Source: Streptomyces sp. 846.5 (GTDB lineage: Bacteria; Actinomycetota; Actinomycetes; Streptomycetales; Streptomycetaceae). Taken from it: a stretch of 64,000 nt of DNA. This document shows positions 25,533 through 43,673 of the stretch, in pieces. Position 1 is the stretch's first letter. The number at the start of each line of letters is the position of its first letter. The DNA lies in assembly GCF_004365705.1 (NCBI RefSeq), contig NZ_SOBN01000001.1:310001-374000 (forward strand). The letters run 5' to 3'. Made by a program: the position numbers and the translations under genes. The notes under the pieces were generated by a model that saw only the letters and a list, made by a program, of their open reading frames with translations, was not told where the DNA came from and ran no database searches.

Positions 25533-27422
<1,890 letters not shown>

Positions 27423-27448
27423 CCGAACCAGCTGTCAGGAGACACCCC

Positions 27449-28945
27449 GTGAGAACCATCGAACACTGGATCGGCGGAAGCACCACCTCCGCCGGCTCGA
27501 CCCGCACCGCCCCGGTGTGGGACCCGGCCACCGGGGAGCAGCAGGCACAGGTGCTGCTCGCCGAGCCCTCCGACGTGGACACCGCGGTCGCCGCCGCGAG
27601 CAAGGCGTTCGAGTCCTGGGGCGACGTCTCGCTGAGCCGCCGCACCCGGGTCATGTTCAGGATGCGCGAACTGCTGGAGCGTCACGAGGGCGAGCTGGCC
27701 CGGATCGTCGCCTCCGAGCACGGCAAGGTGGTCTCCGACGCCCGGGGCGAGATCATCCGGGGCCGCGAGGTGGTCGAGTACGCCTGCGGGATCTCCAGCG
27801 CGCTCAAGGGCGGCTACTCCGACCAGGTCTCCACCGACGTCGACGCCTACACCTTCCGCCAGCCGCTGGGCGTCTGCGCCGGCATCACCCCGTTCAACTT
27901 CCCGGTGATGGTGCCGCTGTGGATGCACCCGCTGGCCATCGCCTGCGGCAACACCTTCGTGCTCAAGCCCAGCGAGCGCGACCCCTCGGCCTCGCTGTTC
28001 GTGGCCCAGCTCTACGCCGACGCGGGGCTTCCCGACGGCGTCTTCAACGTCGTCAACGGCGACAAGACCGCCGTGGACGCCGTCCTGGACCACCCCGGGG
28101 TCGCGGCGGTGTCGTTCGTGGGCTCGACCCCGATCGCCCGTTACGTGCACGACCGCGCCGCTGCCTCCGGCAAGCGGGTGCAGGCGCTCGGCGGCGCCAA
28201 GAACCACGCCGTGGTTCTGCCCGACGCCGACCTGGACTACGCGGCCGACCACCTGACCGCCGCCGCCTTCGGCTCGGCCGGCCAGCGCTGCATGGCGATC
28301 TCGGTCGCGGTGGCCGTCGGCGCCGCCGGGGACGCGCTGGTGCCGCTGCTCGCCGAGAAGGCACGGGCGGTCCGGGTCGGCCCCGGCCAGGACCCGGCCA
28401 GCGAGATGGGCCCGCTGGTCACCCCGCAGGCCAGGGCGCGGGTCACCGAGGCCGTCGCGACCGGCGACGCCCAGGGCGCGGTGGTCGTCGTCGACGGCCG
28501 CGACCTGGAGGTGGCCGGTCACGCGGGCGGCTTCTTCGTCGGGCCGACGCTGCTGGACCGGGTGACCGACCGGATGGACGTCTACCGGGACGAGGTCTTC
28601 GGTCCGGTCCTGGTGGTCGTCCGGGTCGACTCGCTGGACGAGGCGCTGCGGCTGATCAACGCGAACCCGTACGGCAACGGCACGGCCATCTTCACCTCCG
28701 ACGGCGAGTCGGCCCGGCGCTTCCAGCGCCAGGTGAGGGTCGGCATGATCGGCATCAATGTGCCGATCCCGGTGCCGATGGCGCACTTCTCCTTCGGCGG
28801 CTGGAAGGACTCGCTGTTCGGGGACACCCACGTCCACGGCCCCGAGGGCGTCGTCTTCTACACCCAGGGCAAGGTCGTCACCAGCCGCTGGCCGCACGTG
28901 CAGCGCCCGCTGGAGGCGGCGTTCAACTTCCCCACCGCCCACTGA
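27449..28945 (+). CDS. iolA: CoA-acylating (methyl)malonate-semialdehyde dehydrogenase
   Basis: 498-residue aldehyde dehydrogenase that converts malonate semialdehyde to acetyl-CoA and CO2 with NAD and CoA. Seen: GITPFNFPVMVPLWMHPLA, the NAD loop FVGSTPIARYVH, QALGGAKNHAVVLPDAD, and the nucleophile in GSAGQRCMAIS (Cys281). GGWKDSLFGD and the C-terminal FYTQGKVVTSRW are typical of MmsA/IolA. GTG start with CAGGAGA upstream, 26 bp after iolD. Could equally serve valine breakdown, but the context is inositol. Confidence 0.93.
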   Translation: MRTIEHWIGGSTTSAGSTRTAPVWDPATGEQQAQVLLAEPSDVDTAVAAASKAFESWGDVSLSRRTRVMFRMRELLERHEGELARIVASEHGKVVSDARGEIIRGREVVEYACGISSALKGGYSDQVSTDVDAYTFRQPLGVCAGITPFNFPVMVPLWMHPLAIACGNTFVLKPSERDPSASLFVAQLYADAGLPDGVFNVVNGDKTAVDAVLDHPGVAAVSFVGSTPIARYVHDRAAASGKRVQALGGAKNHAVVLPDADLDYAADHLTAAAFGSAGQRCMAISVAVAVGAAGDALVPLLAEKARAVRVGPGQDPASEMGPLVTPQARARVTEAVATGDAQGAVVVVDGRDLEVAGHAGGFFVGPTLLDRVTDRMDVYRDEVFGPVLVVVRVDSLDEALRLINANPYGNGTAIFTSDGESARRFQRQVRVGMIGINVPIPVPMAHFSFGGWKDSLFGDTHVHGPEGVVFYTQGKVVTSRWPHVQRPLEAAFNFPTAH

Positions 28946-28991: not shown

Positions 28992-29915
28992 ATGACGAGC
29001 ACACCCAACAAGCTCATCCTGGGCTCGGCCCCCGACTCCTGGGGCGTCTGGTTCCCCGAGGACGAGCACCAGCTGCCGTACCGGCGCTTCCTGGACGAGC
29101 TCGTCGAGGCCGGCTACGACTGGCTGGAGCTCGGCCCGTACGGCTACCTGCCGACCGATCCCGAGCAGCTCGCCGACGAGGTCGGCGGCCGGGGGCTGCG
29201 GGTCTCCGGCGGCACGGTCTTCGGCGCCCTGCACCGGGCCGACCAGTGGGACGAGATGCTCGCCACCACCCGCCGGGTCGCCGAGCTGACCGCCGCGGCC
29301 GGCGCGCACCACCTGGTCTTCATCCCGCCGCTGTTCCGCGCCGAGAAGGGCGGCGCCTTCCTGGAGCCGCCCGTGCTCGGCGACGACAGCTGGACCGTGC
29401 TCACCCGGGCCGCCGACGCGCTGGGCCGGATCATCAGCGAGGAGTACGACGTCCGGCTCTGCCTGCACCCGCACGCCGACAGCCACATCCAGACCCAGCC
29501 GGAGATCGAGCGCTTCCTGGAGGGCACCGACCCGCAGTACGTCTCGCTCTGCCTGGACACCGGGCACGTCGTGTACGGGGGCGGCGACAACCTGGACCTG
29601 ATCCGCAGGTATCCCGAGCGGATCGGCTACGTCCACATCAAGCAGATGGACCCCGACGTGCTGGCCGCCGTCGTGGCCGAGGACCTCTCCTTCGGCGAGG
29701 CGGTCAAACGCGGAGTCTGCGTCGAACCCCCCGCCGGAGTACCGGAGATCGGCCCGGTCACCGAGGCGCTGGCCGGCCTCGACGCCCCGCTGTTCGTCAT
29801 CGTCGAGCAGGACCTCTACCCCTGCGCCCCGGACGTGCCGCTGCCGATCGCGGTCCGCACCAGGAAGTTCCTGGGCGGTTGCGGACTCGGCGCGGCCGGC
29901 ACCCGGATCGGCTGA
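28992..29915 (+). CDS. Xylose-isomerase-like TIM barrel, probable inosose dehydratase (IolE-type)
   Basis: 307 residues of the AP-endonuclease-2/xylose-isomerase-like barrel. Seen: GSAPDSWGVWF at the start, DWLELGPYGYLPTDP, LCLHPHADSHIQTQPEIERF, CLDTGHVVYGGGDNLDLI and YVHIKQMDP, and a late Glu in FVIVEQDLYP, which together supply His/Asp/Glu metal ligands. Place in the operon after iolA and lack of any other dehydratase argue for the IolE step (inosose to diketone). An IolH-like isomerase role is the alternative, so the symbol is left open. Strong AAAGGAG site. Confidence 0.72.
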   Translation: MTSTPNKLILGSAPDSWGVWFPEDEHQLPYRRFLDELVEAGYDWLELGPYGYLPTDPEQLADEVGGRGLRVSGGTVFGALHRADQWDEMLATTRRVAELTAAAGAHHLVFIPPLFRAEKGGAFLEPPVLGDDSWTVLTRAADALGRIISEEYDVRLCLHPHADSHIQTQPEIERFLEGTDPQYVSLCLDTGHVVYGGGDNLDLIRRYPERIGYVHIKQMDPDVLAAVVAEDLSFGEAVKRGVCVEPPAGVPEIGPVTEALAGLDAPLFVIVEQDLYPCAPDVPLPIAVRTRKFLGGCGLGAAGTRIG

Positions 29916-29976
29916 CCCACTCCCCCACCCACCGAACCACCACAGTTCCCCTTCTCGCACAGTGAGGTGCACAGAG

Positions 29977-30984
29977 ATGAACCGTTCGCAGAGATCCACC
30001 CGCGGGACCGTCCTCGTCGCCGCAGCAGCGGCAACTGCCCTGCTGGCCGCCGGGTGCAGCAGCACCGGCGGCGCCAAGGCCACGTCGAACTCGACCGGCA
30101 TCTCCGCCGGCAAGGCCACCACCGCCCACATGACCTTCGCGATGGTCACCCACGCCGCGGCCGGCGACACCTTCTGGGACATCGTGCGCAAGGGCGCCGA
30201 GGCCGCCGCCGCCAAGGACAACGTCACCCTGCTCTACTCCAACGACCCGGTCGCCTCCAAGCAGGCCGCGCTGATCAGCAACGCCATCGCCTCCAAGGTC
30301 GACGGGATCGCGCTCACCCTGTCCACCCCCGACTCCATCATCCCGGTGGCCAAGCAGGCCGAGGCCGCGGGGATCCCGGTGGACGCCTTCAACCAGGGCG
30401 AGAACTACTGGCAGCAGGCGGGCGCGATCGGCTACTTCGGCTCGGACGAGAAGGTCGCCGGCGCCGCCCTGGGCGAGCGGCTGAACACCCTGTCCGCCAA
30501 GCACGACCTCTGCGTCATCCAGCAGCAGGGCTCCGTCGCCCTGGAGGACCGCTGCGCGGGCGTGAAGTCCACCTTCAAGGGCACCACCGACACCATCTAC
30601 GTCAACGGCGCGGACATGTCCTCGGTGCTGTCGACCCTGGAGGCCAAGCTCCGCCAGGACACCAGCATCGACCAGGTCACCGCGCTGGGCGCGCCCATCG
30701 CCCTGACCGCGCTGCAGGCGATCAGCGCCGCGAGCAGCAGCGCCAAGGTCAACACCTTCGACCTGAGCAAGGACGCGGCGGCCGACATCAAGTCCGGGAA
30801 GATCGAGTTCTCGGTCGACCAGCAGCCGTACCTGGAGGGCTACCTCGCCATCGACGCGCTGTGGCTCGACAAGGTCAACGGCAACACCATCGGCGGCGGC
30901 AAGGTGACGCTGACCGGCCCGGCGTTCGTCGACTCCACGAACATCGCCTCGGTCTACCAGTACGCGCAGAACGGTACGAGGTGA
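29977..30984 (+). CDS. Sugar/cyclitol ABC transporter, substrate-binding lipoprotein
   Basis: 335 residues. A lipoprotein signal with LLAAGCSS (Cys near 27) anchors it outside the membrane. The mature part is a ribose-binding-protein-type domain (AMVTHAAAGDTFWDIVRKGAEAAA, SNDPVASKQAALISNAIASKVDGIALTL, EGYLAIDALW). This is the CUT2 class of carbohydrate transport; with the neighbours the substrate is likely myo-inositol or another cyclitol. First of three transporter genes, 61 bp after the IolE-like gene. Confidence 0.9.
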   Translation: MNRSQRSTRGTVLVAAAAATALLAAGCSSTGGAKATSNSTGISAGKATTAHMTFAMVTHAAAGDTFWDIVRKGAEAAAAKDNVTLLYSNDPVASKQAALISNAIASKVDGIALTLSTPDSIIPVAKQAEAAGIPVDAFNQGENYWQQAGAIGYFGSDEKVAGAALGERLNTLSAKHDLCVIQQQGSVALEDRCAGVKSTFKGTTDTIYVNGADMSSVLSTLEAKLRQDTSIDQVTALGAPIALTALQAISAASSSAKVNTFDLSKDAAADIKSGKIEFSVDQQPYLEGYLAIDALWLDKVNGNTIGGGKVTLTGPAFVDSTNIASVYQYAQNGTR

Positions 30985-30991
30985 TCTGACC

Positions 30992-32059
30992 ATGACTGCC
31001 CCTGTCACCACGCCGAGCCCACCCCCGGCCGCCGCGCCGCGGGGGCTCGCCGGGCGCGACTCCCAGCGCTCGCTGCTGCACCGCTTCCTGGCCCGCCCCG
31101 AGGTCGGCGCCCTGGTCGGCGCGATCGCCGTCTACGCCTTCTTCTGGGCGGTCGCCCCCTCCTTCCGACCCGCGGGCTCGCTCTCGCTGGTGCTCTACCA
31201 GGCCTCCACCCTGGGCCTGATGGCACTGCCGGTGGGACTGCTGATGATCGGCGGAGAGTTCGACCTCTCCGCCGGCGTCGCGGTCACCACCTCGTCGCTG
31301 GCCGCGAGCATGTTCAGCTACCAGCTGACCACCAACGTCTGGGTCGGCGTCAGCCTCGCGCTGGTGCTGTCCCTGGCGATCGGGCTCTTCAACGGCGTCA
31401 TGCTGGTCAAGACGAAACTCCCGAGCTTCCTGGTCACCCTGGGCACCTTCCTGATGCTCCAGGGCCTGAACATCGCGATCACCAAGCTGATCACCGGCAA
31501 TGTGGCCACCAACGACATCTCCGACATGGCCGGCTTCAAGACGGCGCACGCCGTCTTCGCCGCCGACATCCACATCGGCGGGGTCGCGGTGAAGGTCACC
31601 GTCTTCTGGTGGCTCGGGTTCGTCGCCCTGGGCAGCTGGATGCTGCTGCGCACCAAGTTCGGCAACTGGGTCTTCGCCGTCGGCGGCCAGAAGGACAGCG
31701 CCAGGGCCGTCGGCGTCCCGGTGGCCCGCACCAAGATCATCCTCTTTATGCTGGTCGGCCTGGGCGCCTGGTTCGTCGGCATGCACAACCTCTTCCAGTT
31801 CAACTCGATCCAGTCCGGCACCGGCATCGGCAACGAACTGCTGTACATCGTCGCCGCGGTGATCGGAGGCTGCCTGCTCACCGGCGGGTTCGGCTCCGTG
31901 GTCGGCCCCGCCATCGGCGCCTTCATCTTCGGCATGGTGTCGCAGGGCATCGTCTTCGCCGGCTGGGACGCCAACTGGTTCCAGTTCTTCCTCGGCCTGA
32001 TGCTGCTGGGCGCGATGCTGCTCAACACCTGGGTCCAACGCCAAGCAGCCCGAAGGTAG
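30992..32059 (+). CDS. CUT2-type ABC transporter permease
   Basis: 355 residues with about nine or ten membrane helices and the BPD_transp_2 signature (GEFDLSAGVAV, LPSFLVTLGTFLMLQGLNIA, GGQKDSARAVGVPVARTKI with the coupling-helix region, IGGCLLTGGFGSVVGPAIGA). The 40-residue N-terminus is cytoplasmic and Pro/Ala-rich. It follows the binding protein by 7 bp and abuts the ATPase gene. Confidence 0.9.
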   Translation: MTAPVTTPSPPPAAAPRGLAGRDSQRSLLHRFLARPEVGALVGAIAVYAFFWAVAPSFRPAGSLSLVLYQASTLGLMALPVGLLMIGGEFDLSAGVAVTTSSLAASMFSYQLTTNVWVGVSLALVLSLAIGLFNGVMLVKTKLPSFLVTLGTFLMLQGLNIAITKLITGNVATNDISDMAGFKTAHAVFAADIHIGGVAVKVTVFWWLGFVALGSWMLLRTKFGNWVFAVGGQKDSARAVGVPVARTKIILFMLVGLGAWFVGMHNLFQFNSIQSGTGIGNELLYIVAAVIGGCLLTGGFGSVVGPAIGAFIFGMVSQGIVFAGWDANWFQFFLGLMLLGAMLLNTWVQRQAARR

Positions 32060-32965
32060 GTGACCACAGTGCCGAACAACTCCCAGCCCACGGCCGGGCA
32101 GCGCGAGGATGGACAGCCCATCGTCGAACTGCACGGCGTGGGGAAGCTCTACGGCAACATCCGCGCGCTGCGCGGGATCGACCTCACCGTCACCCCCGGC
32201 AAGGTGACCTGCGTCCTGGGCGACAACGGGGCCGGCAAGTCCACCCTGATCAAGGTCGTCTCCGGCCTGCACCGGCACGACGAGGGCGAGTACCTGATCG
32301 ACGGTAAGGCGGTGCACCTCGACTCGCCGCGCGAGGCCCTGGACCGGGGCATCGGCACCGTCTACCAGGACCTGGCCGTCGTCCCGCTGATGCCGGTGTG
32401 GCGGAACTTCTTCCTCGGCTCCGAGATGACGCGGCAGCGCTGGCCGGTGCGCCGGCTGGACATCGAGCGGATGAAGAAGATCGCCGACGAGGAACTGTGC
32501 GCGATGGGCATCGAGCTCAACGACCTCGACCAGCCCATCGGCACGCTCTCGGGCGGCCAGCGCCAGTGCGTGGCGATCGCCCGCGCGGTCTACTTCGGCG
32601 CCCGGGTGCTGATCCTGGACGAGCCCACCGCGGCGCTCGGCGTCAAGCAGTCCGGGGTGGTGCTGAAGTACATCGCAGCGGCCCGCGACCGCGGTCTCGG
32701 CGTCATCTTCATCACCCACAACCCGCACCACGCCTACATGGTCGGCGACCGCTTCACCGTGCTCCGTCTCGGCGCCCTGGAACTGGACGCCGACCGCAGC
32801 GAGGTGAGCCTCGAAGAACTCACCAACCACATGGCGGGCGGGGCCGAACTCGCGGCGCTCAAGCACGAGTTGGCCCAGGTCCGCGGCGTCGAGACCGAGG
32901 GGCTCCCGGAAGCCTCGGAGCTCTCCGCGCCGCTCCCGCAACTGGAGAAGGGCAGCCACGCATGA
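32060..32965 (+). CDS. CUT2-type ABC transporter ATP-binding protein
   Basis: 301 residues with one nucleotide-binding domain, half the size of RbsA-type double ATPases. Walker [10 protein letters not shown] (about 55-63), Q-loop YQDLAVVPL, signature LSGGQRQ, Walker [13 protein letters not shown] and H-loop ITHN are present. The GTG at 32060 abuts the permease stop; GTG 32069 is equally likely by its ribosome site. A 40-residue polar C-terminal tail is unusual. The end overlaps the dehydrogenase start by ATGA. Confidence 0.9.
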
Positions 32966-33966
32966 CCGTCAGGATCGGTGTCATCGGCACCGGCAACATC
33001 GGCTCCGACCACATCCGCCGGCTGACCCGGGTGTGCACCGGCGCCCGGGTCACCGCGGTCACCGACATCGACGCCGTGCGCGCCGCCGAGGTCGCCGCCG
33101 AGTACGGCGCGCACGCCCTGGCCACCGGCCGGGAGGTGGTCCGGCACGGCGAGGTCGACGCCGTGCTGGTGGCCTCCTGGGGCCCCACCCACGCCGAGTA
33201 CGTGCTCGACGCCATCGCCGCGGGCAAGCCGGTGTTCTGTGAGAAGCCCCTGGCCACCACCGCCGAGGACTGCCTGCGCATCGTCGAGGCCGAGATCGGG
33301 TACGGCGCCCGCCTGGTCCAGGTCGGCTTCATGCGCCGCTACGACGCCGGGTACCGGGCCCTGCGCCAGGCCCTGACCGCCGGCACCGTCGGCACCCCGC
33401 TGATGGCGCACTGCGTGCACCGCAACCCCGCCGTGCCCGGGAACTACACCTCGGACATGGCGATCCAGGACACCGCCGTGCACGAGATCGACGTACTGCG
33501 CTGGCTGCTGGACGACGAGATCACCTCCGCACAGGTGCTCACCCCGCGGCGCACCCGGCACGCACGCCAGGAGCTGCAGGACCCGCAGATCCTGCTCCTG
33601 GAGACCGCCGGCGGCGTCCGGATCGACGTCGAGGTATTCGTCAACTGCCGCTACGGCTACGACATCCAGTGCCAGATCGTCGGCGAGGACGGCACCGCCT
33701 CGCTGCCCGACCCGGCGCAGCCGGTGCTGCGCACCGAGGGACAGCTGCGCTCCGGGATCCTCCAAGACTGGCGGGACCGCTTCGTGAACGCCTACGACAT
33801 CGAGATCCAGGAGTGGGTGGACTCGGTGGCCGCGGGAACGGTCTCGGGCCCCACCTCCTGGGACGGCTACGCGGCGTCGGTGATCACCGACGCCGGGGTC
33901 GAGGCACTGCACTCCGGCCGGATCGTCCCGGTCTCCATCAAGGACCGTCCCGCGTTCTACGCCTGA
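32962..33966 (+). CDS. iolG: Inositol 2-dehydrogenase (Gfo/Idh/MocA family)
   Basis: 334 residues; ATG overlaps the ATPase stop (ATGA). Rossmann motif [16 protein letters not shown] (94-97) at the active site, and the catalytic pair Asp170…His174 in [15 protein letters not shown], matching known inositol dehydrogenases. Also [14 protein letters not shown] typical of actinobacterial IolG. It should oxidise myo-inositol to 2-keto-myo-inositol with NAD. Of the five family members in the window this is the best IolG candidate by motif and by its link to the transporter. Confidence 0.87.
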
Positions 33967-33981: not shown

Positions 33982-35037
33982 ATGATGCATCGTCAGCTGC
34001 GGACCGCGCTCGTCGGTCTGGGCCGCATGGGCCGCATCCACGCCGGCAACCTGGCCGGCCGCTGCCCCTCGGCGCAACTGGCCTGCGTGGTCGACGCCTC
34101 GCCCGAGGCCGCCCGCCGGGTCGCCGAGGAGCTGGGCGTCCGGTGGACCACCTCCTACGAGGACGTGCTCGCCGACGGCGCCGTCGACGCGGTCGCGATC
34201 GCCACCCCCACCGGCAGCCACGCCGAGCTGAGCGTGCAGGCCGCCAAGGCCGGCAAGCACGTCTTCTGCGAGAAGCCCCTCTCACTGGACCGGCAGGCCG
34301 CCGTCGACACCATCGAGGCGGTGCGCGCCACCGGAGTGGCCTTCCAGGTCGGCTTCCACCGCCGGTTCGACCCGGACTGGGCGGCCGCCGCGGCGCGGAT
34401 GCACGCCGGCGAGCTGGGCCAGGTCCATCTGTTCCGCACCTCGCTGCGGGACATGACACCACCGAAGGCGGAGTTCCTGGGCGGCTCCGGCGGCTTCTTC
34501 GTCGACATGACCATCCACGACCTGGACACCGCCCGCTGGATGGTCGGCGAGATCGTCGAGGTGACCGCACAGGGCGCCGTGCTGACCGACCCCGCCATCG
34601 CCGAGATCGGCGACCTGGACACCGCGGTGGTGCTGCTGCGCTTCGAGAACGGCGCCCTGGGCGTCATCGACAACAGCCGCGCCGCCGGGTACGGCTACGA
34701 GTGCTCCACGGAGGTGATGGGCAGCAGGGCCACCGTCCGCATCGACAACCCGCACCACCGCAACTACGAGTGGCGCACCCCGGGGTGGAGCTCCCGCGAC
34801 CTGGTGCGCGACTTCGAGCAGCGCTACCCCTACGCCTACGCCGAGGAGCTGGAGGCATTCGCACGCTGTGCCCTGCAGGGCACACCGCCGGCGGTCGGCG
34901 GAGAGGACGCCCTGGCCGCCTTCGACCTGGCCCAGGCCGCCGACCTCTCCTGGCGCGAGGGCCGCACGGTACGGCTCACCCCGCTCCGCACCGCGGACGG
35001 CGTACGCTACGAAACGGCCACTCCTGACGGAAGATAG
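33982..35037 (+). CDS. Gfo/Idh/MocA dehydrogenase, second copy
   Basis: 351 residues. Rossmann LVGLGRMGRIHAGNL, EKPLSLD (97-103), and Asp175…His179 in GGFFVDMTIHDLDTARWM, so the catalytic residues of inositol dehydrogenases are intact. The N-terminus has a double Met start with a short AGGAG-like site. It lies 15 bp after iolG. Likely oxidises a different stereoisomer (scyllo- or D-chiro-inositol) or uses another cofactor; this is inference. Confidence 0.83.
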   Translation: MMHRQLRTALVGLGRMGRIHAGNLAGRCPSAQLACVVDASPEAARRVAEELGVRWTTSYEDVLADGAVDAVAIATPTGSHAELSVQAAKAGKHVFCEKPLSLDRQAAVDTIEAVRATGVAFQVGFHRRFDPDWAAAAARMHAGELGQVHLFRTSLRDMTPPKAEFLGGSGGFFVDMTIHDLDTARWMVGEIVEVTAQGAVLTDPAIAEIGDLDTAVVLLRFENGALGVIDNSRAAGYGYECSTEVMGSRATVRIDNPHHRNYEWRTPGWSSRDLVRDFEQRYPYAYAEELEAFARCALQGTPPAVGGEDALAAFDLAQAADLSWREGRTVRLTPLRTADGVRYETATPDGR

Positions 35038-35421: not shown

Positions 35422-36468
35422 TCAGTCGAGGACCGGCACGGTCGCGGCGTCCGGTGGCATGTTGAACGGCGTGACCACCTGGATCGCCGAGGGCAGCGAG
35501 GGGCCGTCGTCGGGCAGGGCCTGGTGCGCGCGCATGATGGTCTGGCAGGCCCGACGCATGTCCTGGCGCAGGTCGTGGTGGAGGACCGCGGAGAGGCGGC
35601 GTTCGCGCAGCAGGCGGGTGTTGTCGTGGTCGAGGTCGTGGGCGATGAACACCGCGCACTCCCGCCCGAGCGCCTCGAAGGCGTCGAGGGTCGCCAGGTT
35701 GCCCCCGCCCACCGAGTAGACGGCGACGATGTCCTTGTCGCGTTCGAGTGCCTCGACAACGAGGTCGTACTGGGTGGCGTCGAGGCCGTCGCTGTCGGTG
35801 ACCTCCACCAGGGAGCGTCGTGGCTCGGCAAGCCGCATGGCACTGCGGAAGCCCATCTCGCGCTCCTCCTCACCCCGGAAGGAGCCGCGGCTGACCGTGG
35901 TGAGCACATGGCCGGGCCGATCGCCGAGCCACCGCCCGAGGAGGTAGGCGGCGGTGGCGCCCGCCGCGCGGTTGTCGATGCCGACGTACGCCAGCCGCGC
36001 ACTGTGGGGCAGGTCGGTCACCAGGGTGACGACGGGGATGCCTGCCGCGACGAGCCGTCCGACGGCGGCCGCGATCTCCGGTTCGTCCGGGGCCTTGAGG
36101 ATCACGCCCTGCGAACCGCGCTTGGCGATCCTGTCCAGGATGCCGACCAGCTCACCGGGAGGGCAGGTCTCACGGAAGTGGAAGCGCGAGCGCACCAGAG
36201 CGGGGTGCAGGGAGGGCAGTTCGGCCTCGAGCGCGTCCCGCACCGCACTGGAGAACCGCTCCGGGGTCTGCATCACGATATCGATCATGAAGGTGCGGCC
36301 CCCGAGCCGGACCTGGCTCTGCTGCCGGTCCAGGTCCTTGACGGCCTCGTGCACCTCCCTGACGGTGCTCTCCGTCACGTTGCCGCGCTGATTGAGGACA
36401 CGGTCCACCGTGGCCGTGCTCAGTCCGGCCTGACGGGCGATTTCCCTGATCGTGTAGCGGTGTCGCAT
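35422..36468 (-). CDS. LacI-family repressor, first
   Basis: 348 residues. N-terminal LacI helix-turn-helix (YTIREIARQAGLSTATVDRVLNQRGNVTESTVREV, about 5-40) and a periplasmic-binding-protein-like sensor domain (GVILKAPDEPEIAAAVGRLVAAGIPVVTLVTDL, YVGIDNRAAGATAAYLLG). The variant sensor resembles those that bind sugars or cyclitols. It ends 14 bp from the VOC gene (convergent) and diverges from the oxygenase-SDR-dehydrogenase module, which it probably represses. Confidence 0.88.
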   Translation of the reverse strand: MRHRYTIREIARQAGLSTATVDRVLNQRGNVTESTVREVHEAVKDLDRQQSQVRLGGRTFMIDIVMQTPERFSSAVRDALEAELPSLHPALVRSRFHFRETCPPGELVGILDRIAKRGSQGVILKAPDEPEIAAAVGRLVAAGIPVVTLVTDLPHSARLAYVGIDNRAAGATAAYLLGRWLGDRPGHVLTTVSRGSFRGEEEREMGFRSAMRLAEPRRSLVEVTDSDGLDATQYDLVVEALERDKDIVAVYSVGGGNLATLDAFEALGRECAVFIAHDLDHDNTRLLRERRLSAVLHHDLRQDMRRACQTIMRAHQALPDDGPSLPSAIQVVTPFNMPPDAATVPVLD

Positions 36469-36487: not shown

Positions 36488-36530
36488 ATGATGGGTTTTT
36501 GATGTGGTGACAGGCATTGAATGATGGGTT
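36488..36530. promoter_or_regulatory. Direct repeat ATGATGGGTT, candidate operator
   Basis: ATGATGGGTT occurs at 36488-36497 and 36521-36530, 33 bp apart (three turns), in the 110-bp divergent region between the LacI gene and the oxygenase gene. Direct repeats are atypical for LacI proteins, so another regulator or a pair of half-sites is possible. Confidence 0.37.
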
Positions 36531-36578
36531 CGAGTTCTCAAGACTGGCAGAAATCCTCGGACTACGAAAGGGAACCGG

Positions 36579-37757
36579 ATGTCTCCCATCACTGCGGGAG
36601 CGCGAACGTGGCTGACCGAGGCGGACTGCGATCTCGACGTGTTCCGCTCACTCGTGGAACAGAGCACGGACCCCGCCGACCACCCCTCGGCCGAGCGCGT
36701 CGAACAGAACGTCCCGCTCTACGACAGCGATCGGCTCCGCTCACTGGCGACCACCTCGGAGGGCCGCCGGGGCGTGCAGGAGGAGCTGGTCCGGGCTCTG
36801 CTGGAGGGGCCCGGCATCGTGGTCCTCAAGCGCGCCTTCGTCGACAGGGCCGTCGTGGAAGCGGCCTCCGAGGCCTTCCGCGCGCTGATCGAGGAGGAGC
36901 GCGCCACCGGAGCGGCCCGCGGTGACCACTTCGCCAAGCCCGGCGCGAACGACCGCGTCTGGAACGCCCTGGACAAGGTGGCCGTGCGGGCGCCCGAGGT
37001 GTTCGCCGACTACTACGCCAACGATGTCCTGGAGCTCGTCGCGGAGGCCTGGCTCGGCCCCGCCTACCAGGTGACCTCCCAGCTCAACGTGGTCAACCCG
37101 GGCGGCGCGGCGCAGCACGTCCACCGCGACTACCACCTCGGCTTCCTCTCCCAGGAGCACGCCGCCGCCTACCCGGCGCAGGTCCACCGCCTGTCGCCGC
37201 TGCTCACCCTGCAGGGCGCGGTGGCCCACTGCGACATGCCCGTCGAGTCCGGCCCGACCCTGTACCTGCCGCACTCGCAGACGTACGAGCCCGGGTACCT
37301 GGCCTGGCGGCTGCCGCAGTTCGTCGAGTACTTCGGCACGCACCACGTCCAGCTCCCGCTGGACAAGGGCGACGCGGTCTTCTTCAACCCGGCGCTCTTC
37401 CACGCCGCCGGACACAACCGCTCGGCCGACATCAGGCGGATGGCCAATCTGCTGCAGATCTCCTCCGCCTTCGGCCGCGCGATGGAGACGGTGGACCGTG
37501 AGGCGATGGCGAACGCGCTGTTCCCGGTGCTGCTGCGGCGCAAGTCCGAGGGCGCCTCGGAGGACTGGCTGCGCCGCGTGATCGCGGCCACCGCCGAGGG
37601 CTACCCCTTCCCCACCGACCTCGATCTGGATCCGCCGGTCGAGGGGCTGGCCCCGCCCTCCCAGGCGGACACCGTCCGGCAGGCCGTCGCCGAGGACTGG
37701 GACCCCGAGCGGCTGCGCCGCGAACTGCGGGCGGCCGCCGACCGCCGCCGGCGCTGA
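36579..37757 (+). CDS. Phytanoyl-CoA-dioxygenase-family oxygenase
   Basis: 392-residue non-haem Fe(II)/2-oxoglutarate oxygenase. The metal triad is visible as His182-x-Asp184 (QHVHRDYHLGF) and a distal His in FHAAGHNRSADIRR (His275 or His279), with the Arg that should bind 2-oxoglutarate nearby. PhyH enzymes hydroxylate or oxidatively demethylate small substrates. It heads a four-gene unit with an SDR and two Gfo/Idh/MocA dehydrogenases, so the substrate is probably a cyclitol or sugar derivative. It is not part of the textbook inositol pathway. Confidence 0.82.
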   Translation: MSPITAGARTWLTEADCDLDVFRSLVEQSTDPADHPSAERVEQNVPLYDSDRLRSLATTSEGRRGVQEELVRALLEGPGIVVLKRAFVDRAVVEAASEAFRALIEEERATGAARGDHFAKPGANDRVWNALDKVAVRAPEVFADYYANDVLELVAEAWLGPAYQVTSQLNVVNPGGAAQHVHRDYHLGFLSQEHAAAYPAQVHRLSPLLTLQGAVAHCDMPVESGPTLYLPHSQTYEPGYLAWRLPQFVEYFGTHHVQLPLDKGDAVFFNPALFHAAGHNRSADIRRMANLLQISSAFGRAMETVDREAMANALFPVLLRRKSEGASEDWLRRVIAATAEGYPFPTDLDLDPPVEGLAPPSQADTVRQAVAEDWDPERLRRELRAAADRRRR

Positions 37758-37772
37758 AGGGACACAGCACTC

Positions 37773-38549
37773 ATGGGACTGCTTGAGACCCCGCTGCTCA
37801 AGGACCGGGTCGTCCTTGTCAACGGCGGCAGCCAGGGCGTCGGCGCGGGCATCGTGCGGGCGGCCGTCCGGGAGGGCGCGCCCGTCGTCTTCACCGGCCG
37901 TCGGGCCGAGGTCGGCGAGAGGCTCGCGGCCGACTCGGGCGCGCGCTTCATGCGCGCGGACCTCAGCGATCCGGCGCAGGCGCGCGAGAGCGCGGTCCGG
38001 GTCGTCGACGTCCACGGGCGTATCGACTGCCTGGTCAACGCGGCCGGGCTGACGTCGCGCGGCTCGCTGCTGGACACCACGCCGGAACTGTTCGACCAGC
38101 ACATGGCGATCAACCTGCGCGCACCGTTCTTCGCGATGCAGGCGGCAGTGGCCGACATGACGGCCCGCAGGGCGCCGGGCACCATCGTCAACATCATCTC
38201 CAACTGCGCCCACGGCGGCCCGCCCCACCTGGCGCCGTACTCCGCGGCCAAGGCCGGCCTGGCCGGTCTGACCCGCAACGCCGCCCATGCGCACCGCTGG
38301 GACCGGATCCGGATCAACGGCCTCAACATCGGCTGGACGGACACCGAGGGCGAAGACGCCATCCAGCGCGCCTTCCACGATGCGGGCGACGACTGGCGGG
38401 AGAAGGCCGCCCGGGCGCAGCCCATGGGCAGGCTCGGGCAGGTCGACGAGATCGCCGACTTCGTCGTCCTGCTGCTCTCCGACCGCAGCGGCGTGGTGAC
38501 CGGCTCGGTCATCGACTGGGACCAGAACGTACTCGGCAGCCTGGACTGA
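37773..38549 (+). CDS. SDR-family oxidoreductase
   Basis: 258 residues, classical short-chain dehydrogenase. The cofactor motif is NGGSQGVGAGI (the first Thr replaced by Asn, Ile by Val), then NAAG, the catalytic Ser region NIISNCAHGG, YSAAK, and the GWTDTEGE segment after it. It follows the oxygenase by 15 bp and precedes a Gfo/Idh/MocA gene by 31 bp. Substrate likely a hydroxylated ring or sugar acid. Confidence 0.87.
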   Translation: MGLLETPLLKDRVVLVNGGSQGVGAGIVRAAVREGAPVVFTGRRAEVGERLAADSGARFMRADLSDPAQARESAVRVVDVHGRIDCLVNAAGLTSRGSLLDTTPELFDQHMAINLRAPFFAMQAAVADMTARRAPGTIVNIISNCAHGGPPHLAPYSAAKAGLAGLTRNAAHAHRWDRIRINGLNIGWTDTEGEDAIQRAFHDAGDDWREKAARAQPMGRLGQVDEIADFVVLLLSDRSGVVTGSVIDWDQNVLGSLD

Positions 38550-38580
38550 ATCGCCCTCGGGCAGAAAGAGCAGGATTCTC

Positions 38581-39585
38581 ATGCGTATAGGCATCATGGG
38601 GCTGGGCCGCATCGGCGCCTTCCACGCCCGGACCCTCGCCGGGCTGGACGCGGTGGACTCCCTGGTGGTCACCGACCCGGTGGCCGCGGCCGTCGCCACC
38701 GCCACCGAGCGCTTCGGGGCCACCGCCGCCGACTCTCCCGAAGCCCTGCTCGCCGCCGGCGTCGACGGTGTCGTGATCGCCGCGGCGACCGACGCGCACC
38801 CCCAGCTCATCCTCGCCGCCGTGGAGGCGGGCATTCCCGTCTTCTGCGAGAAGCCCGTGGCGCGCGGGGTCGAGGAGAGTCTGGAGGTGCTGCGTGCGGT
38901 GGAGGGCAGTGGCGTCCCGGTGCACATCGGCTACAACCGGCGCTTCGACGCGGGCTGCGTGGCCGCGCGCCGGGCCGTGGTCAGCGGTGAGCTCGGCGAC
39001 CTGCACACCGTACGGTCCACCACCCTCGACCCCGCCCCGCCGCCACCCGCCTACGTGGCCGTCTCCGGCGACATCTTCCGCGACTGCAGTGTGCACGACT
39101 TCGACATCGTGCGCTGGGTGACCGGCCGCGAGGTGACCGAGGTCTACGCGACCGGAGGCAACCGGGGCGCGCAGTACATCCGTGACGCGGATGACGTCGA
39201 CACGGCCTCCGCCCTGCTCACCCTCGACGACGGCGCCATCGCCGTCATCTCCAACTCCCGCCACAACGCCCGCGGTTACGACGTGCGCCTGGAGCTGCAC
39301 GGCATGAAGGACAGCATCGCGGTCGGCCTGGAGGACAGGCTGCCGCTGCGCTCCGTCGAACCGGGCGTCACCTTCCCGGCCGGGACCCCGCACTCCTTCT
39401 TCATGGACCGCTTCGCCGACGCCTACCGCGCCGAACTCACCGCGTTCACCGAGGTCGTCGCCGGCGCCCGCCCCTCCCCCTGCACGGTCGCGGACGCCGT
39501 CGAGGCGAGCTGGATCGCCGAGGCGTGCACCCTGTCGCTGCGTGAGCACCGTCCCGTCCGACTCGACGAGGTGCGTAAGGGATGA
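38581..39585 (+). CDS. Inositol-dehydrogenase-like Gfo/Idh/MocA protein, third copy
   Basis: 334 residues. Rossmann GIMGLGRIGAFHARTL, EKPV (90-93), and Asp168…His172 in GDIFRDCSVHDFDIVRW, so catalytic residues are present. The unusual YVAVSGDIFRD and a DxAVGLEDRLPLRSVEPG region differ from IolG. It overlaps the next gene by ATGA. Part of the oxygenase module. Confidence 0.87.
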   Translation: MRIGIMGLGRIGAFHARTLAGLDAVDSLVVTDPVAAAVATATERFGATAADSPEALLAAGVDGVVIAAATDAHPQLILAAVEAGIPVFCEKPVARGVEESLEVLRAVEGSGVPVHIGYNRRFDAGCVAARRAVVSGELGDLHTVRSTTLDPAPPPPAYVAVSGDIFRDCSVHDFDIVRWVTGREVTEVYATGGNRGAQYIRDADDVDTASALLTLDDGAIAVISNSRHNARGYDVRLELHGMKDSIAVGLEDRLPLRSVEPGVTFPAGTPHSFFMDRFADAYRAELTAFTEVVAGARPSPCTVADAVEASWIAEACTLSLREHRPVRLDEVRKG

Positions 39586-40601
39586 CGGACGAGCCTTTGC
39601 GGATCGGGATCCTGGGCGCGGCCCGGATCGCCGAGCTGTCGATCGTGGGGCCGGCCCGTGCGACCGGCCACCGCCTGGTCGCGGTGGCCGCCCGCGACCG
39701 CGACCGGGCCAAGGCCTTCGCCGCCGCGCACGGCGTGGAGCGGGTGGCGGACTCCTATGCCGGCCTGGTCGCCGATCCGGAGATGGAGGTGGTCTACAAC
39801 CCGTTGGCCAACGGCCTGCACGGGCCGTGGAACCTGGCCGCGCTGCGGGCCGGCAAGCACGTCCTCACCGAGAAGCCGTCCGCGAGTAACGCGACGGAGG
39901 CGGCCGAGGTCCACCGGGCCGTCGCCGAGGCGGGCACGGTGTTCATGGAGGGCTTCCACTACCTGTTCCACCCGGTCACCCGGCGCCTGCACGAGCTGCT
40001 GGGCAGCGGGGAGTTGGGCGAGCTGCGGCACGTCGAGACCGTGATGGCCATGCCCGCGCCGCCGGACGACGACGTGCGGTGGTCGCTCCCGCTGGCGGGC
40101 GGCGCGCTGATGGACCTCGGCTGCTACAGCCTGCACGCCCAGCGCATGCTCACGCCCTGGGCAGGTGGGGAACCCCGGCTGGTCGCCGCGCGCGGCGGCG
40201 AGAAGGCGGGGGCTGCCGCGGTCGACGAGTGGCTGGACGCCGATCTGGAGTTCCCGGGCGGCGCCACCGGTACCGCCCGCTGCCACATGGCCCACCACAC
40301 CTGGCAGATGAGCTGCCGCGTGGTGGGCTCGCGCGGCGAGGCCACGGCGGTGAACTTCGTCCAGCCGCACCTGGACGACCGGGTGGTGGTACGGACGGCG
40401 GCCGGTGAGCGCACCGAGGAACTCGGCCGCCGGTCCTCGTACACCTACCAACTCGAAGCGTTCGCCGCCCACCTGCGGCACGGTGCGCCGCTGGCGCTCG
40501 ACGCCGACGACGCGCTGACCACCATGCGGCTCATCGACGACACCTACCGGGCGGCCGGGTTCCTGCTCCGGCCGCGTACGGTCCTTCCGGCCGCAGTGTG
40601 A
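39582..40601 (+). CDS. Gfo/Idh/MocA protein, dihydrodiol-dehydrogenase-like, fourth copy
   Basis: 339 residues. Rossmann GILGAARIAELS lacks the usual GxGxxG spacing, EKPS (97-100), and the catalytic region is GGALMDLGCYSLHAQRML with Tyr182 instead of His, the pattern of glucose-fructose oxidoreductase and dihydrodiol dehydrogenase relatives. It therefore likely acts on an aldose or diol rather than on inositol. Translationally coupled to the third copy; last gene of the module. Confidence 0.87.
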   Translation: MTDEPLRIGILGAARIAELSIVGPARATGHRLVAVAARDRDRAKAFAAAHGVERVADSYAGLVADPEMEVVYNPLANGLHGPWNLAALRAGKHVLTEKPSASNATEAAEVHRAVAEAGTVFMEGFHYLFHPVTRRLHELLGSGELGELRHVETVMAMPAPPDDDVRWSLPLAGGALMDLGCYSLHAQRMLTPWAGGEPRLVAARGGEKAGAAAVDEWLDADLEFPGGATGTARCHMAHHTWQMSCRVVGSRGEATAVNFVQPHLDDRVVVRTAAGERTEELGRRSSYTYQLEAFAAHLRHGAPLALDADDALTTMRLIDDTYRAAGFLLRPRTVLPAAV

Positions 40602-40628: not shown

Positions 40629-41654
40629 TCAGCCGGCCGTGGTCGTGGTGCCGCGGACGACCAGGTGCGGGGCGATGACGGTCTCCCCCTCGGGGTCCGG
40701 TTCGCCCTCCAGCCGGGCGACGGCCCGGCCGACCGCGATCCCGGCGAGGCGTTGGACGTCCTGGGCGACGGTGGTGAGGTCGATGTGGGCGAGGCGGGCC
40801 AGGCGGCTGTCGTCGAAGCCGACCACGGAGATCTCGGCGGGGACGCGGACACCGCAGCGCAGCAGGGTGTCCAGGACGCCGGTGGCGCAGCGGTCGTTGA
40901 AGGCGAGGACGGCGGTGGGGCGCGGCCCGGTGGTGAGCAGGGCGCGGGCGGCCGCGGCGCCGTCGTCCTCGGTCAGTCCGCCGGGCAGGACGCGGACGTG
41001 CTCGGCCAGGCCGTGGCGGGTCATCGCGGTGCGGTAGCCCCGGCGCCGGTCCGCGGCGCCGGGGGCCCTGCCGCCGTCTATGTGGGCGATGTCGCGGTGG
41101 CCGAGCCCCACCAGGTGGTCGACGGCCTGGCGGGCGCCTTCGTCGTCGGCGGTGCGGACGACGGCCACCTGACCGGCGGACGACCGCAGCCGTCGGGCGA
41201 CCGAGACCACCGGCAGCTGGCCGGCCAACTCGGCCAGTCGCGCGGCGGGGGCCTGCGGGCCGAGCAGGATCAGCGCCTCGCAGCGATCGGCCAACAGGGT
41301 TTCCACGGCTTGCTGTTCGCTGCGACTGGGGGCGACGGCGCTCAGCGCGATCTGGTAGCCGACGGGTTCGGCCGCCGCGTAGAGGCACTCCACCAGGTCG
41401 GTGTGGAACGGGTGTTGCAGGCCGAACTGGACGCCGAGCAGGCGTGACCGGTGGCTGCGCAGCAGGCGTGCACGGGCGTCGGGCCGGTAGCCGATCTCCT
41501 TGGCGGCCTGCAGGATCCGCTCGCGGGTGGCGGCGCTGGCGCCCTTGGTGTCGCGCATGACGGTGGAGACCAGCGCCGTGGACACGCCCGCGCGCGCGGC
41601 GACGTCAGCCAGGGTGGGCCGCTTCCCGCTCGTGGCCGTGGGGCTCGGTGGCAC
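40629..41654 (-). CDS. LacI-family repressor, second
   Basis: 341 residues: canonical helix-turn-helix (PTLADVAARAGVSTALVSTVMRDTKGASAATRERILQAA, about 12-50) and a LacI/PurR-type sensor domain (GLGHRDIAHIDGG, GVRVPAEISVVGFDDSRLARLAHIDLTTV). It diverges from the isomerase-dehydrogenase pair; two sites with the same core lie between and are its probable operators. Confidence 0.92.
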   Translation of the reverse strand: MPPSPTATSGKRPTLADVAARAGVSTALVSTVMRDTKGASAATRERILQAAKEIGYRPDARARLLRSHRSRLLGVQFGLQHPFHTDLVECLYAAAEPVGYQIALSAVAPSRSEQQAVETLLADRCEALILLGPQAPAARLAELAGQLPVVSVARRLRSSAGQVAVVRTADDEGARQAVDHLVGLGHRDIAHIDGGRAPGAADRRRGYRTAMTRHGLAEHVRVLPGGLTEDDGAAAARALLTTGPRPTAVLAFNDRCATGVLDTLLRCGVRVPAEISVVGFDDSRLARLAHIDLTTVAQDVQRLAGIAVGRAVARLEGEPDPEGETVIAPHLVVRGTTTTAG

Positions 41655-41731
41655 TGGTGACCTCCGTGGTCGATGTCGTCTCCGGGTCCGATGATCCCAG
41701 ACCGGCGGCGGGAGCCGTAGCCCCAGAGAAC

Positions 41732-41743
41732 TATAACGTTCTA
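41732..41743. promoter_or_regulatory. LacI operator O2, TATAACGTTCTA
   Basis: Differs at one base from the O1 core TAGAACGTTCTA. It lies 78 bases upstream of the LacI start and 76 bp, centre to centre, from O1. Suits autoregulation and perhaps a loop. Confidence 0.6.
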
Positions 41744-41805
41744 TAGCCGTTGGCGACGACCTCTTGACAGAGGAGCCCGCCGACTGGCGTACTGCAACCC
41801 TGACG

Positions 41806-41821: not shown

Positions 41822-41833
41822 AGGTGAGGGTGA

Positions 41834-42622
41834 GTGGCGATGTACACATTGGCGGTCTGCGCCGAGATGGTCTTCCGGGACCTGCCGATCCAGGAGCGGG
41901 CCGAGCGCATCCACGAAGCGGGCTTCCAGGTGGAGATCTGGGACTGGACCCGGCACGACCTGGATGCCCTCGCCCGCACCCCGGCCCGTTTCTCGTCCAT
42001 GACCGGTTACATCCGCGGCACCCTGACCGACGAGGACGGCGCGGCCGAGCTGCTGCGCACTGCCGAGGAGTCGGTCAAGGCCGCCGAACAGCTGGGCTGC
42101 CCCCGGCTGAACCTGCACGGGACCGGCCTGGACGACCAGGGTCTGCCCGTCGTCCCGGTGACCGGCGAGGCCGACGGCCCGATGTGGGTCGCCGCGCACC
42201 GCACCCTCACCCGGATCGCCGAGCTGGGCGAGAGCGCCGGGGTCGTCTTCACCCTGGAGAACCTCAACACCGCCGTCGACCACCCCGGCGTGCCGTTCGC
42301 CAGGGCCGCCGACACGCTGGCCCTGGTCGCGGCCGTGGACCGGCCGGGCCTGCGGATGAACCTGGACCTGTACCACGCCCAGATCGGCGAGGGGAATCTC
42401 ATCGAGCTGGTCCGCAGGGCGCACGGGCTGGGCCTGATCGGCGAGATCCAGGTAGCGGACGTACCCGGCCGCTGCGAGCCGGGCACCGGGGAGATCTCCT
42501 ACCCGGCCGTCGCCCGCGCCCTCGCCGAGCTGGGCTACGACGGCACGGTCGCCATGGAGGCCTGGGCCTCCGGCGACGACGACCTCGCCCTGGAACGCTT
42601 CCGCTCCGCCTTCACCCTCTGA
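41834..42622 (+). CDS. Hydroxypyruvate-isomerase-like TIM-barrel protein
   Basis: 262 residues from GTG 41834 (ATG 41840 also possible). Barrel of the Hyi/tagatose-epimerase group: CAEMVFRDLPIQERAERI, TLENLNTAVDHPG (Glu ligand), MNLDLYHAQIGEGNL (Asp), EIQVADVPGRCEPGTGEI (His replaced by Gln) and a final Glu in VAMEAWA. It should isomerise a keto sugar or inosose. Two-gene unit with the fifth Gfo/Idh/MocA gene under the second LacI repressor. Confidence 0.82.
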   Translation: MAMYTLAVCAEMVFRDLPIQERAERIHEAGFQVEIWDWTRHDLDALARTPARFSSMTGYIRGTLTDEDGAAELLRTAEESVKAAEQLGCPRLNLHGTGLDDQGLPVVPVTGEADGPMWVAAHRTLTRIAELGESAGVVFTLENLNTAVDHPGVPFARAADTLALVAAVDRPGLRMNLDLYHAQIGEGNLIELVRRAHGLGLIGEIQVADVPGRCEPGTGEISYPAVARALAELGYDGTVAMEAWASGDDDLALERFRSAFTL

Positions 42623-42644
42623 CAACGACGTACGGAGAACCCTC

Positions 42645-43673
42645 ATGACCACCACCACGCAGCAGCCCCTCGCCGTCGGTCTCGTCGGCGCCGGACGGAT
42701 GGGCTCCTTCCACGCCGAGTCCCTCGCCCGGCGCATCCCCGGCGCCCGGCTCGCCGCCGTCGCCGACCCGGCCCCTGGTGCCGCGCAGCGCCTCGCAAAC
42801 CGGCTGGGCTGCCCCAAGGCGCTGACCGACATCGGCGCGCTGCTCGCCGACCCGGAGATCGACGCCGTGGTCATCGCCACCCCGGCCCGCACCCACGCCG
42901 ATCTCGTCGAGGCGGCGGCGCGGGCGGGCAAGGCGGTCTACTGCGAGAAGCCCATGGCGGTCACCCTCGCCGAGGCCGACCGCGCCATCAGCGCCGCCGA
43001 GGAGGCCGGCGTCGCGCTCCAGGTGGGCTTCAACCGACGTTACGACGCCGGGTTCCGCGCCGCCCACGACAAGGTCGCAGCCGGTGGCATCGGCACCCCG
43101 CAGCTGCTGCGCTCCCTCACCCGCGACCCCCGGCTGGTCGACCCGGCCCCCATCCCGCCGTGGACGATCTTCCTGGAGACCCTCATCCACGACTTCGACA
43201 CCCTGCGCTACCTCAACCCCGGCGCCGAGCCCGTCGAGGTCTTCGCCATGGCCGACGCCCTGGTCCGTCCCGACTTCCGGGACCGCGGCCTGCTGGACAC
43301 CGCCGTGGTCACCATCCGCTTCGACAACGGCGCCATGGCCACCGCGGAGGCCAACTTCCAGGCCGTGTACGGCTACGACGTACGCGGCGAGGTCTTCGGC
43401 TCGGCCGGCATGCTCACCATGGGCGACATCCGCCGCACCCACCTGACCTCCTACGGCGCGGACGGCGTCACCGCCGACTGCGTCAGCTACGACCAGGACC
43501 TATTCCACGACGCGTACGTCGCCGAACTCGCCGACTTCGCCGGCTGCGTGCGCACCGGGACCACCCCCGCCGTCACCGGCCAGGACGCCCGCGCCGCGCT
43601 GTCCATCGCCCTCGCCGCCATCCAGTCGGTCACCACCGACGGCCCGGTCCTGATCGACGACATCAAGGAGTAG
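42645..43673 (+). CDS. Inositol-dehydrogenase-like Gfo/Idh/MocA protein, fifth copy
   Basis: 342 residues. Rossmann GLVGAGRMGSFHAESL, EKPM (101-104), and TIFLETLIHDFDTLRYL, in which the catalytic Asp is replaced by Glu178 while His182 is kept. The rest matches inositol 2-dehydrogenases well (GFNRRYDAGFRAAHDKV). It lies 22 bp after the isomerase gene. Probably a dehydrogenase for a stereoisomer or a derivative; the Asp-to-Glu change may alter activity. Confidence 0.87.
   Translation: MTTTTQQPLAVGLVGAGRMGSFHAESLARRIPGARLAAVADPAPGAAQRLANRLGCPKALTDIGALLADPEIDAVVIATPARTHADLVEAAARAGKAVYCEKPMAVTLAEADRAISAAEEAGVALQVGFNRRYDAGFRAAHDKVAAGGIGTPQLLRSLTRDPRLVDPAPIPPWTIFLETLIHDFDTLRYLNPGAEPVEVFAMADALVRPDFRDRGLLDTAVVTIRFDNGAMATAEANFQAVYGYDVRGEVFGSAGMLTMGDIRRTHLTSYGADGVTADCVSYDQDLFHDAYVAELADFAGCVRTGTTPAVTGQDARAALSIALAAIQSVTTDGPVLIDDIKE

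Follow-up and report, generated by a model that had tools for sequence, protein, structure and literature searches.

What an oxygenase does among the genes of inositol catabolism is the question raised by a 64,000-nucleotide stretch of Streptomyces sp. 846.5 (contig NZ_SOBN01000001.1, positions 310,001 to 374,000; hereafter the window, in which all positions are counted from the first letter). The window shares the downstream genes of the classical iol pathway (IolG/E/D/B/C/A), with a divergent IolE; we know of no oxygenase step in that pathway. Beside these genes lies one for a PhyH-type Fe(II)/2-oxoglutarate oxygenase (PhyH), followed by genes for a short-chain dehydrogenase/reductase (SDR) and two enzymes of the Gfo/Idh/MocA family (Gfo3 and Gfo4) and preceded by a divergent LacI-type regulator (LacI1). 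A role of this unit in cyclitol metabolism, as an entry module that feeds the iol pathway by a candidate reaction, is well supported because the unit lies near iol genes in several phyla, co-occurs with them among genomes, has a dedicated regulator for which one site is predicted and has a candidate counterpart in a published table of co-regulated genes. An earlier sequence-only reading of the locus had proposed such a route with O-methyl inositols among the substrates; the entry module withstands the present analysis well, and the substrate is a plausible candidate.

A putative oxygenase operon

PhyH, SDR, the two Gfo/Idh/MocA enzymes and the divergent LacI1 were all found as the sequence-only reading had laid them out (Table 1). 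By open reading frame (ORF) coordinates, PhyH and SDR are separated by 15 bp and SDR and Gfo3 by 31 bp, while Gfo3 and Gfo4 overlap by 4 bp. Being so tightly packed, the four genes likely form a single transcription unit, and this predicted operon adjoins iol genes and an inositol-type ATP-binding cassette (ABC) importer.

PhyH scores 125.8 bits against PF05721, for which the gathering score is 22, and is the sole match to itself in its own genome at E <= 0.001. Its HxD...H triad and arginine (H182, D184, H275 and R287) are invariant in a 10-row cross-phylum alignment and also in 46 rows that are nearly all actinobacterial; we take the first three to be the metal triad and R287 to be the 2-oxoglutarate-binding arginine. 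Its predicted structure adopts the PhyH-type double-stranded beta-helix fold. Relatives of solved structure found by sequence are all remote (best E 0.005), and the fold matches include the orthosomycin oxygenases EvdO1 and AviO1 as well as KanJ, at 10-22% identity among the matches listed (13-16% for EvdO1/AviO1; 15% over 253 aligned residues for KanJ). EvdO1 and AviO1 are PhyH-fold enzymes that act on sugar units in antibiotic tailoring, and KanJ, the kanamycin B dioxygenase that is paired with the reductase KanK, is a biosynthetic PhyH-fold Fe(II)/2-oxoglutarate enzyme acting on an aminocyclitol compound; we count these substrates in favor of a cyclitol. Hydroxylation of phytanoyl-coenzyme A (CoA) was considered and rejected: the unit contains no acyl-CoA gene, and such genes near PhyH are isolated cases rather than the rule (an acyl-CoA dehydrogenase in locus L087, an AMP-binding enzyme in L091, and AMP-binding and thiolase genes in L151). 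The module offers a role for a gene family so far annotated merely as phytanoyl-CoA dioxygenase.

The SDR scores 379 bits with the NCBIfam profile PRK06198 (cut-off 240). Gfo3 has the usual Asp168-x3-His172 active-site motif and reaches 329.7 bits with the inositol 2-dehydrogenase profile TIGR04380, slightly below the curated cut-off of 355, so that it is IolG-like and not filed as IolG; its nearest solved chains by sequence search include inositol dehydrogenases. Since Gfo3 looks like an inositol dehydrogenase, the earlier claim that none of the steps is needed for myo-inositol was too strong. The Tyr-type site ascribed to the fourth dehydrogenase, on the other hand, is borne out by Lys98 and Asp178-x3-Tyr182 of Gfo4. 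Its nearest solved relatives by sequence are a sugar 3-ketoreductase, a plant oxidoreductase, a dihydrodiol dehydrogenase and an anhydrofructose reductase, and it belongs with the Tyr-type sugar and diol oxidoreductases.

Recurrence and association with iol genes

A contig scan returned at least 587 relatives of PhyH, and the best 80 loci were used for counts of gene content, a gene being scored as present when a homologue of at least 45% identity lay within the fetched stretch, which extended up to 10 kb per side. LacI1 was present in 75 of the 80 loci, SDR in 71 and Gfo3 in 69; homologues of Gfo3 and Gfo4 at this threshold were seen only in actinobacterial loci. Genes of the iol pathway or of the importer were found in 51 loci and absent from 29, and they occurred in 38 of the 48 loci whose flanks both reach 9 kb or more. 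Linkage in these counts, and in the tree described below, refers to window-type genes at the same identity threshold, and annotated plasmid iol genes (e.g., in L151, L152 and L161) were scored "no". The four-gene unit delimited by the sequence-only reading thus recurs, but not always with four genes: LacI1 with PhyH is the commonest core, SDR is common, and a few PhyH genes stand nearly alone. The ORF clustering relied on a crude GC-position caller, which misses genes.

Four Streptomyces loci (L072, L075, L076 and L077) carry a PhyH 82-85% identical to that of the window, with no SDR, Gfo3 or Gfo4 neighbor detected; L076 keeps LacI1. In these four, PhyH may work alone. Carbohydrate-active genes lie nearby in three unlinked loci (CBM domains in L072, a CE2-type esterase in L076, GH3/GH30 in L077), and a glycoside or ester substrate was rejected as these show no common theme. 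A metagenome-assembled contig titled Deltaproteobacteria (L089) encodes a PhyH 73% identical to the window's that falls among Streptomyces rows, indicating either transfer or mis-binning.

A protein search of plasmid records gave 48 matches. Of these, 26 loci were examined, several without gene annotation, so iol genes may be missed there. The commonest core was again LacI1 with divergent PhyH, often together with SDR. Annotated iol genes occur within the stretch in six loci, from Tsukamurella, Shinella, Paracoccus, Marinovum, Thioclava and Pantoea At-9b (iolG only), and are arranged differently among them; in L158, L160 and L164 the sole indication is a weak iolE-like match (26%), and in L154 iolG lies at a greater distance.

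Co-occurrence was also assessed at the level of whole genomes, which are related to one another, so that the p-values serve as guides only. PhyH was detected at E <= 1e-60 in 11 of 396 Actinomycetota genomes. Outside Streptomycetaceae, iolD exceeded its cut-off in 6/6 PhyH genomes versus 2/13 PhyH-negatives (Fisher p 0.001), the latter being those listed outside that family rather than a random draw; in five of the six, iolD and PhyH share a contig at a distance of 11-15 kb. In genus g19, both genomes with PhyH have iolD and the three others are without it. Among 200 Streptomycetaceae genomes there were 29 PhyH matches, two of them partial (G002 and G060), and iolD exceeded its cut-off in 29/29 of these versus 90/171 of the others (p 6e-8), an association that is confounded because nearly all genomes of the PhyH-rich genus g9 have iolD. 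Better tests are provided by the samples taken within a genus and across the phylum. In the window's own genus, 2 of 14 genomes have both PhyH (partial in G002) and iolD, and the remaining 12 have neither (p 0.011).

LacI1 and its predicted operator

LacI1 belongs to the LacI family by its helix-turn-helix (PF00356, 41.8 bits) and effector domain (PF13407, 89.3 bits). Its helix reads ATVDRVLN, and it is without the YRPxxxAR hinge present in LacI2, a second regulator of the window. The predicted operator consists of direct repeats phased by 11 bp. Of 118 distinct LacI1/PhyH intergenic regions, 110 contain TGAKG as two closely spaced copies and the other eight hold near variants; 129 of 135 TGAKG pairs are spaced by 6 bases. 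In the 118 predicted sites, halves shifted by 11 bp agree at 6.69 of 9 positions versus 4.30 of 9 for the best inverted halves, a comparison that leans towards direct repeats as the sites were chosen with the direct-repeat pattern. Independent of this choice is the signal in 100 regions from the actinobacterial set, where the TGAKGG match is raised also at offsets 22 and 33 (4.5 and 4.6 of 6; shuffled 2.0); in 16 plasmid regions the two chosen repeat units alone stand out.

With up to one mismatch allowed, the operator pattern TGAKGNNTTTTTGAKG has a single occurrence in the 9.03-Mb window genome. Exact sites, 23 in total, are present in 22 of 28 relatives with PhyH matches and absent from six; 21 of them are found no more than about 150 bp from where the PhyH match starts and two lie elsewhere (G040:C30 and G157:C36), while a reversed control pattern gave zero sites in the same 28 genomes. 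Judging from these genome-wide counts, LacI1 probably regulates one target. CytR, a LacI member, is known to accept direct repeats, so the predicted operator is unusual rather than unique. The module draws attention to a LacI subgroup whose predicted operator is unusual; the LacI regulator motifs described in a published survey are palindromes (PMC4052901).

Among loci L196 to L201, the strict pattern is found in L199 and L200 only; degenerate 11-bp repeats can be seen by eye in L196, L197 and L198, and none in L201. In L197, LacI1 sits between PhyH and SDR, and 11-bp direct repeats can be discerned upstream of each of the two genes. In Ciceribacter (L146:7851-8908), the LacI1 adjoining PhyH is annotated as two ORFs, and the regulator may be broken.

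Proposed function and comparison with MocDEF

The iron-dependent oxygenase probably trims modified plant inositols for use as ordinary inositol. LacI1 would repress one divergent promoter via the phased repeats and would be released by a cyclitol or a derived inosose. PhyH, with Fe(II), O2 and 2-oxoglutarate, would hydroxylate a modified cyclitol; in the most likely version it would attack the O-methyl group of pinitol, ononitol or a similar compound, and the resulting hemiacetal would collapse to formaldehyde and free inositol. SDR and Gfo3, with Gfo4 where present, would oxidize or epimerize the inositol or its keto form to an inosose, which would enter IolE/IolD. O-demethylation of O-methyl inositols by PhyH is a candidate reaction toward which we lean tentatively. 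More speculative is the wider proposal that a cross-phylum and hitherto unassigned Fe(II)/2-oxoglutarate oxygenase family with the signature HRDYHLGF acts as a catabolic O-methyl inositol O-demethylase, a single-protein counterpart of MocDEF, under a hinge-less LacI subgroup that binds 11-bp phased direct repeats and not a palindrome; we regard this as possible at best.

The rhizopine oxygenase complex MocDEF of Rhizobium and Sinorhizobium resembles the module in that its oxygenase step, in the published model, channels a modified O-methyl cyclitol to the iol pathway, and in that its genes adjoin those for Gfo/Idh/MocA enzymes, a TIM-barrel protein and a sugar ABC importer. The two differ in their enzymes: MocD is annotated as desaturase-type and is accompanied by the ferredoxin MocE and a flavin adenine dinucleotide (FAD) reductase, whereas the module has a single PhyH and its own LacI1. 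The window genome holds no good match to MocD, the best match to one MocD homologue scoring 22 bits.

In Peteryoungia (L154), the PhyH unit lies at the end of an island with iolG, MocDEF, a folD piece, purU and genes for a PanB-like protein, a LacI regulator, a TIM-barrel protein, an ABC importer and a Gfo enzyme. FolD and PurU dispose of one-carbon units, and the island therefore looks like one for the use of O- or N-methyl cyclitols, a context that favors methylated cyclitols as substrates. The idea that PhyH replaces MocDEF in Peteryoungia was dropped, as MocDEF was found on the other side of the locus. Islands with MocDEF, purU, folD and genes for a PanB-like protein, LacI, a TIM barrel and an ABC importer were seen at L171:5380-17694, L170:7765-21255 and L168:344-12080; in these rhizobial islands PanB-like is cut at the edge in L168, folD is a piece in L170, Gfo is present in L168 and L170, and iolG in L170 and L171. 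Such an island resembles a locus for O-methyl cyclitols that carries its own means of one-carbon disposal. L169 holds an iol operon that includes a gene related to the Peteryoungia Gfo; PhyH is missing from the 15 kb compared.

An inositol role gains independent backing from published expression data for Ensifer adhaerens OV14 on plant roots, where a table lists nine genes whose expression is lowered throughout the sampling from day 1 to day 7, at every time point: two phage genes, six genes of the rhizopine/inositol or ABC transporter kind, and one PhyH gene, OV14_RS14055, with identities of 86% to S. meliloti and 78% to A. tumefaciens; in the main text, "phytanoyl" appears in that table row only (PMC6637203). 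The LacI1-linked PhyH proteins of S. meliloti and A. tumefaciens are 76% alike. These identities agree, and OV14_RS14055 fits as a candidate, rather than proven, orthologue of the LacI1-linked PhyH.

Methylated inositols are described as widespread in legumes (PMC8730688), and pinitol is reported as the most concentrated component measured in root exudate of the legume Mimosa (145 uM, with inositol at 0.73 uM, as added to cultures; PMC5789663). Our search of the open-access literature, with subscription journals largely outside its scope, found no 2-oxoglutarate oxygenase assigned to methylated inositol breakdown. The module supplies genes that can be tested in Streptomyces, Sinorhizobium, Agrobacterium and Pantoea.

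Contrary evidence and alternative reactions

A number of observations weigh against a methyl cyclitol role coupled to the iol genes. Gfo4 has a homologue in merely 40 of the 80 loci, 10 of the 48 loci with full flanks are without iol or importer neighbors, and 16 of the 26 plasmid loci have no iol genes in the stretch, an ABC importer accompanied by Gfo genes being present in L032 and L165 of this group. No theme is shared by the genes scanned next to units that are unlinked. A tree of 107 PhyH proteins places the window in a clade (23 rows including the window) that has 19 unlinked and 3 linked members, with incomplete flanks, several of them in this clade, scored "no" and the ATPase left out of the rule; a neighboring clade of 51 has 43 linked and 8 unlinked. 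A location mostly away from iol genes, which the sequence-only reading had named as speaking against it, thus applies to the window's PhyH clade (19/22) and not to the 80 loci (51 linked), and whole-operon linkage to iol as a rule was rejected. The tree requires at least 11 changes of linkage, of which 6 are forced by well-supported branches; the unit therefore behaves as an independent cassette that came to adjoin iol genes more than once.

The contrary points extend to the methyl group itself. No one-carbon genes were found in the window, and across the window and the loci compared, L154 itself gave the only match to the Peteryoungia purU/folD. Rhizobium SL42 and R. rosettiformans have the same island without PhyH in the stretch compared, so that PhyH is an addition in Peteryoungia and may act on something else; moreover, Peteryoungia already carries MocDEF beside the PhyH unit. 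In R. mesoamericanum, mocDEF homologues and iol genes rose with pinitol-rich exudate and the main text of the report names no phytanoyl gene (PMC5789663), which speaks for MocDEF as one route in that organism. The candidate Ensifer orthologue moves with myo-inositol genes, and the inducer may thus be inositol itself.

The neighborhood evidence would serve equally well if PhyH hydroxylated a deoxy-cyclitol (quercitol, viburnitol) at a ring C-H and so gave inositol directly for oxidation by Gfo3 or SDR. C-H hydroxylation is the commonest PhyH chemistry, the validamycin hydroxylase VldW provides a cyclitol precedent, and this reaction needs no one-carbon genes, consistent with the window. It leaves the association with one-carbon genes in Peteryoungia unexplained, and nothing quercitol-specific turned up, though quercitol was not searched for; we consider ring hydroxylation unlikely. 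Slightly less likely is a role for the unit in a side branch of the metabolism of plain inositol (an inosose, scyllo- or chiro-inositol, or a damaged intermediate), rather than with a modified plant cyclitol as substrate. The joint down-regulation of the Ensifer PhyH with myo-inositol genes would agree with such a role, as would the lack of an importer beside unlinked units in the stretches compared; to our knowledge, however, the conversion of plain inositols relies on dehydrogenases and isomerases and involves no oxygenase, and the 90 Streptomycetaceae genomes that have iolD without a PhyH match argue against it. Oxidative deamination of an amino-cyclitol of the scyllo-inosamine type to an inosose and ammonia, with the Gfo enzymes acting on the ketone, has a model in the action of KanJ/KanK on kanamycin and is improbable, as KanJ was not retrieved by sequence searching up to E 10 and other folds are nearer, no aminotransferase is annotated next to PhyH in the plasmid records examined (no systematic search was made), and a single amine-annotated ABC importer lies about 10 kb from PhyH (L034). 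Of the reactions considered, O-demethylation is the one we tentatively favor.

The surrounding inositol island

Table 1. Positions, strands and supporting evidence for the module and its neighbors in the window
Feature	Position	Strand	Basis or remark
iolC	22749..23705	(+)	384.8 bits, cut-off 300
Aldolase, iolJ/DeoC-like	23644..24570	(+)	L033 homologue annotated deoxyribose-phosphate aldolase
iolB	24613..25527	(+)	296.7 bits, cut-off 205
iolD	25557..27422	(+)	942 bits, cut-off 715
iolA, methylmalonate-semialdehyde dehydrogenase (start approximate)	27437..28945	(+)	717.6 bits, cut-off 448.5
Divergent iolE-like dehydratase	28992..29915	(+)	141.6 bits, below cut-off 290
Sugar/inositol-type ABC importer (binding protein, permease, ATPase)	29962..32965	(+)	named by eye from sequence
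Gfo1, inositol 2-/D-chiro-inositol dehydrogenase-like (start approximate)	32950..33966	(+)	NF052679 492 bits, cut-off 540
Gfo2, inositol 2-dehydrogenase	33982..35037	(+)	TIGR04380 363 bits, cut-off 355
LacI1, divergent regulator	35422..36468	(-)	LacI helix-turn-helix and Peripla_BP_4 effector domain
Predicted LacI1 operator, 11-bp phased direct repeats	36489..36532	(+)	units at 36489, 36500 and 36522; no clear unit at 36511
PhyH-type Fe(II)/2-oxoglutarate oxygenase, core enzyme	36579..37757	(+)	PF05721, motifs, predicted fold
SDR dehydrogenase	37773..38549	(+)	PRK06198 subfamily (NCBIfam), YSAAK motif
Gfo3	38581..39585	(+)	inositol-dehydrogenase-like Gfo/Idh/MocA, Asp/His type
Gfo4	39582..40601	(+)	Tyr-type Gfo/Idh/MocA
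LacI2, canonical LacI, divergent to TIM2-Gfo5	40629..41654	(-)	sequence
TIM2, xylose-isomerase-like TIM barrel, putative inosose isomerase	41834..42622	(+)	profile match
Gfo5, inositol-dehydrogenase-like	42645..43673	(+)	TIGR04380 333 bits, cut-off 355

The iol pathway beside the module, previously described as complete, is so with respect to iolB, iolC, iolD and iolA, all of which exceed their cut-offs; its IolE is divergent and its aldolase DeoC-like, the latter giving no NCBIfam profile match at E <= 1e-20. The IolE-like dehydratase, far under its cut-off, may act on a different inosose. Homologues of the ABC importer adjoin iol genes in relatives. A second iol set lies in the same genome at C1:480 kb (L167, G000:C1:468001-487900), with matches to iolC, the aldolase, iolB, iolD, a distant iolE, Gfo1 and LacI2 and no match to PhyH. 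On the far side of the module, LacI2 and the divergent TIM2-Gfo5 pair form a second regulated unit (40629-43673). TIM2 homologues (54-63%) are found in the PhyH loci L161, L196, L199 and L200, and in L196 homologues of this second unit adjoin the PhyH unit.

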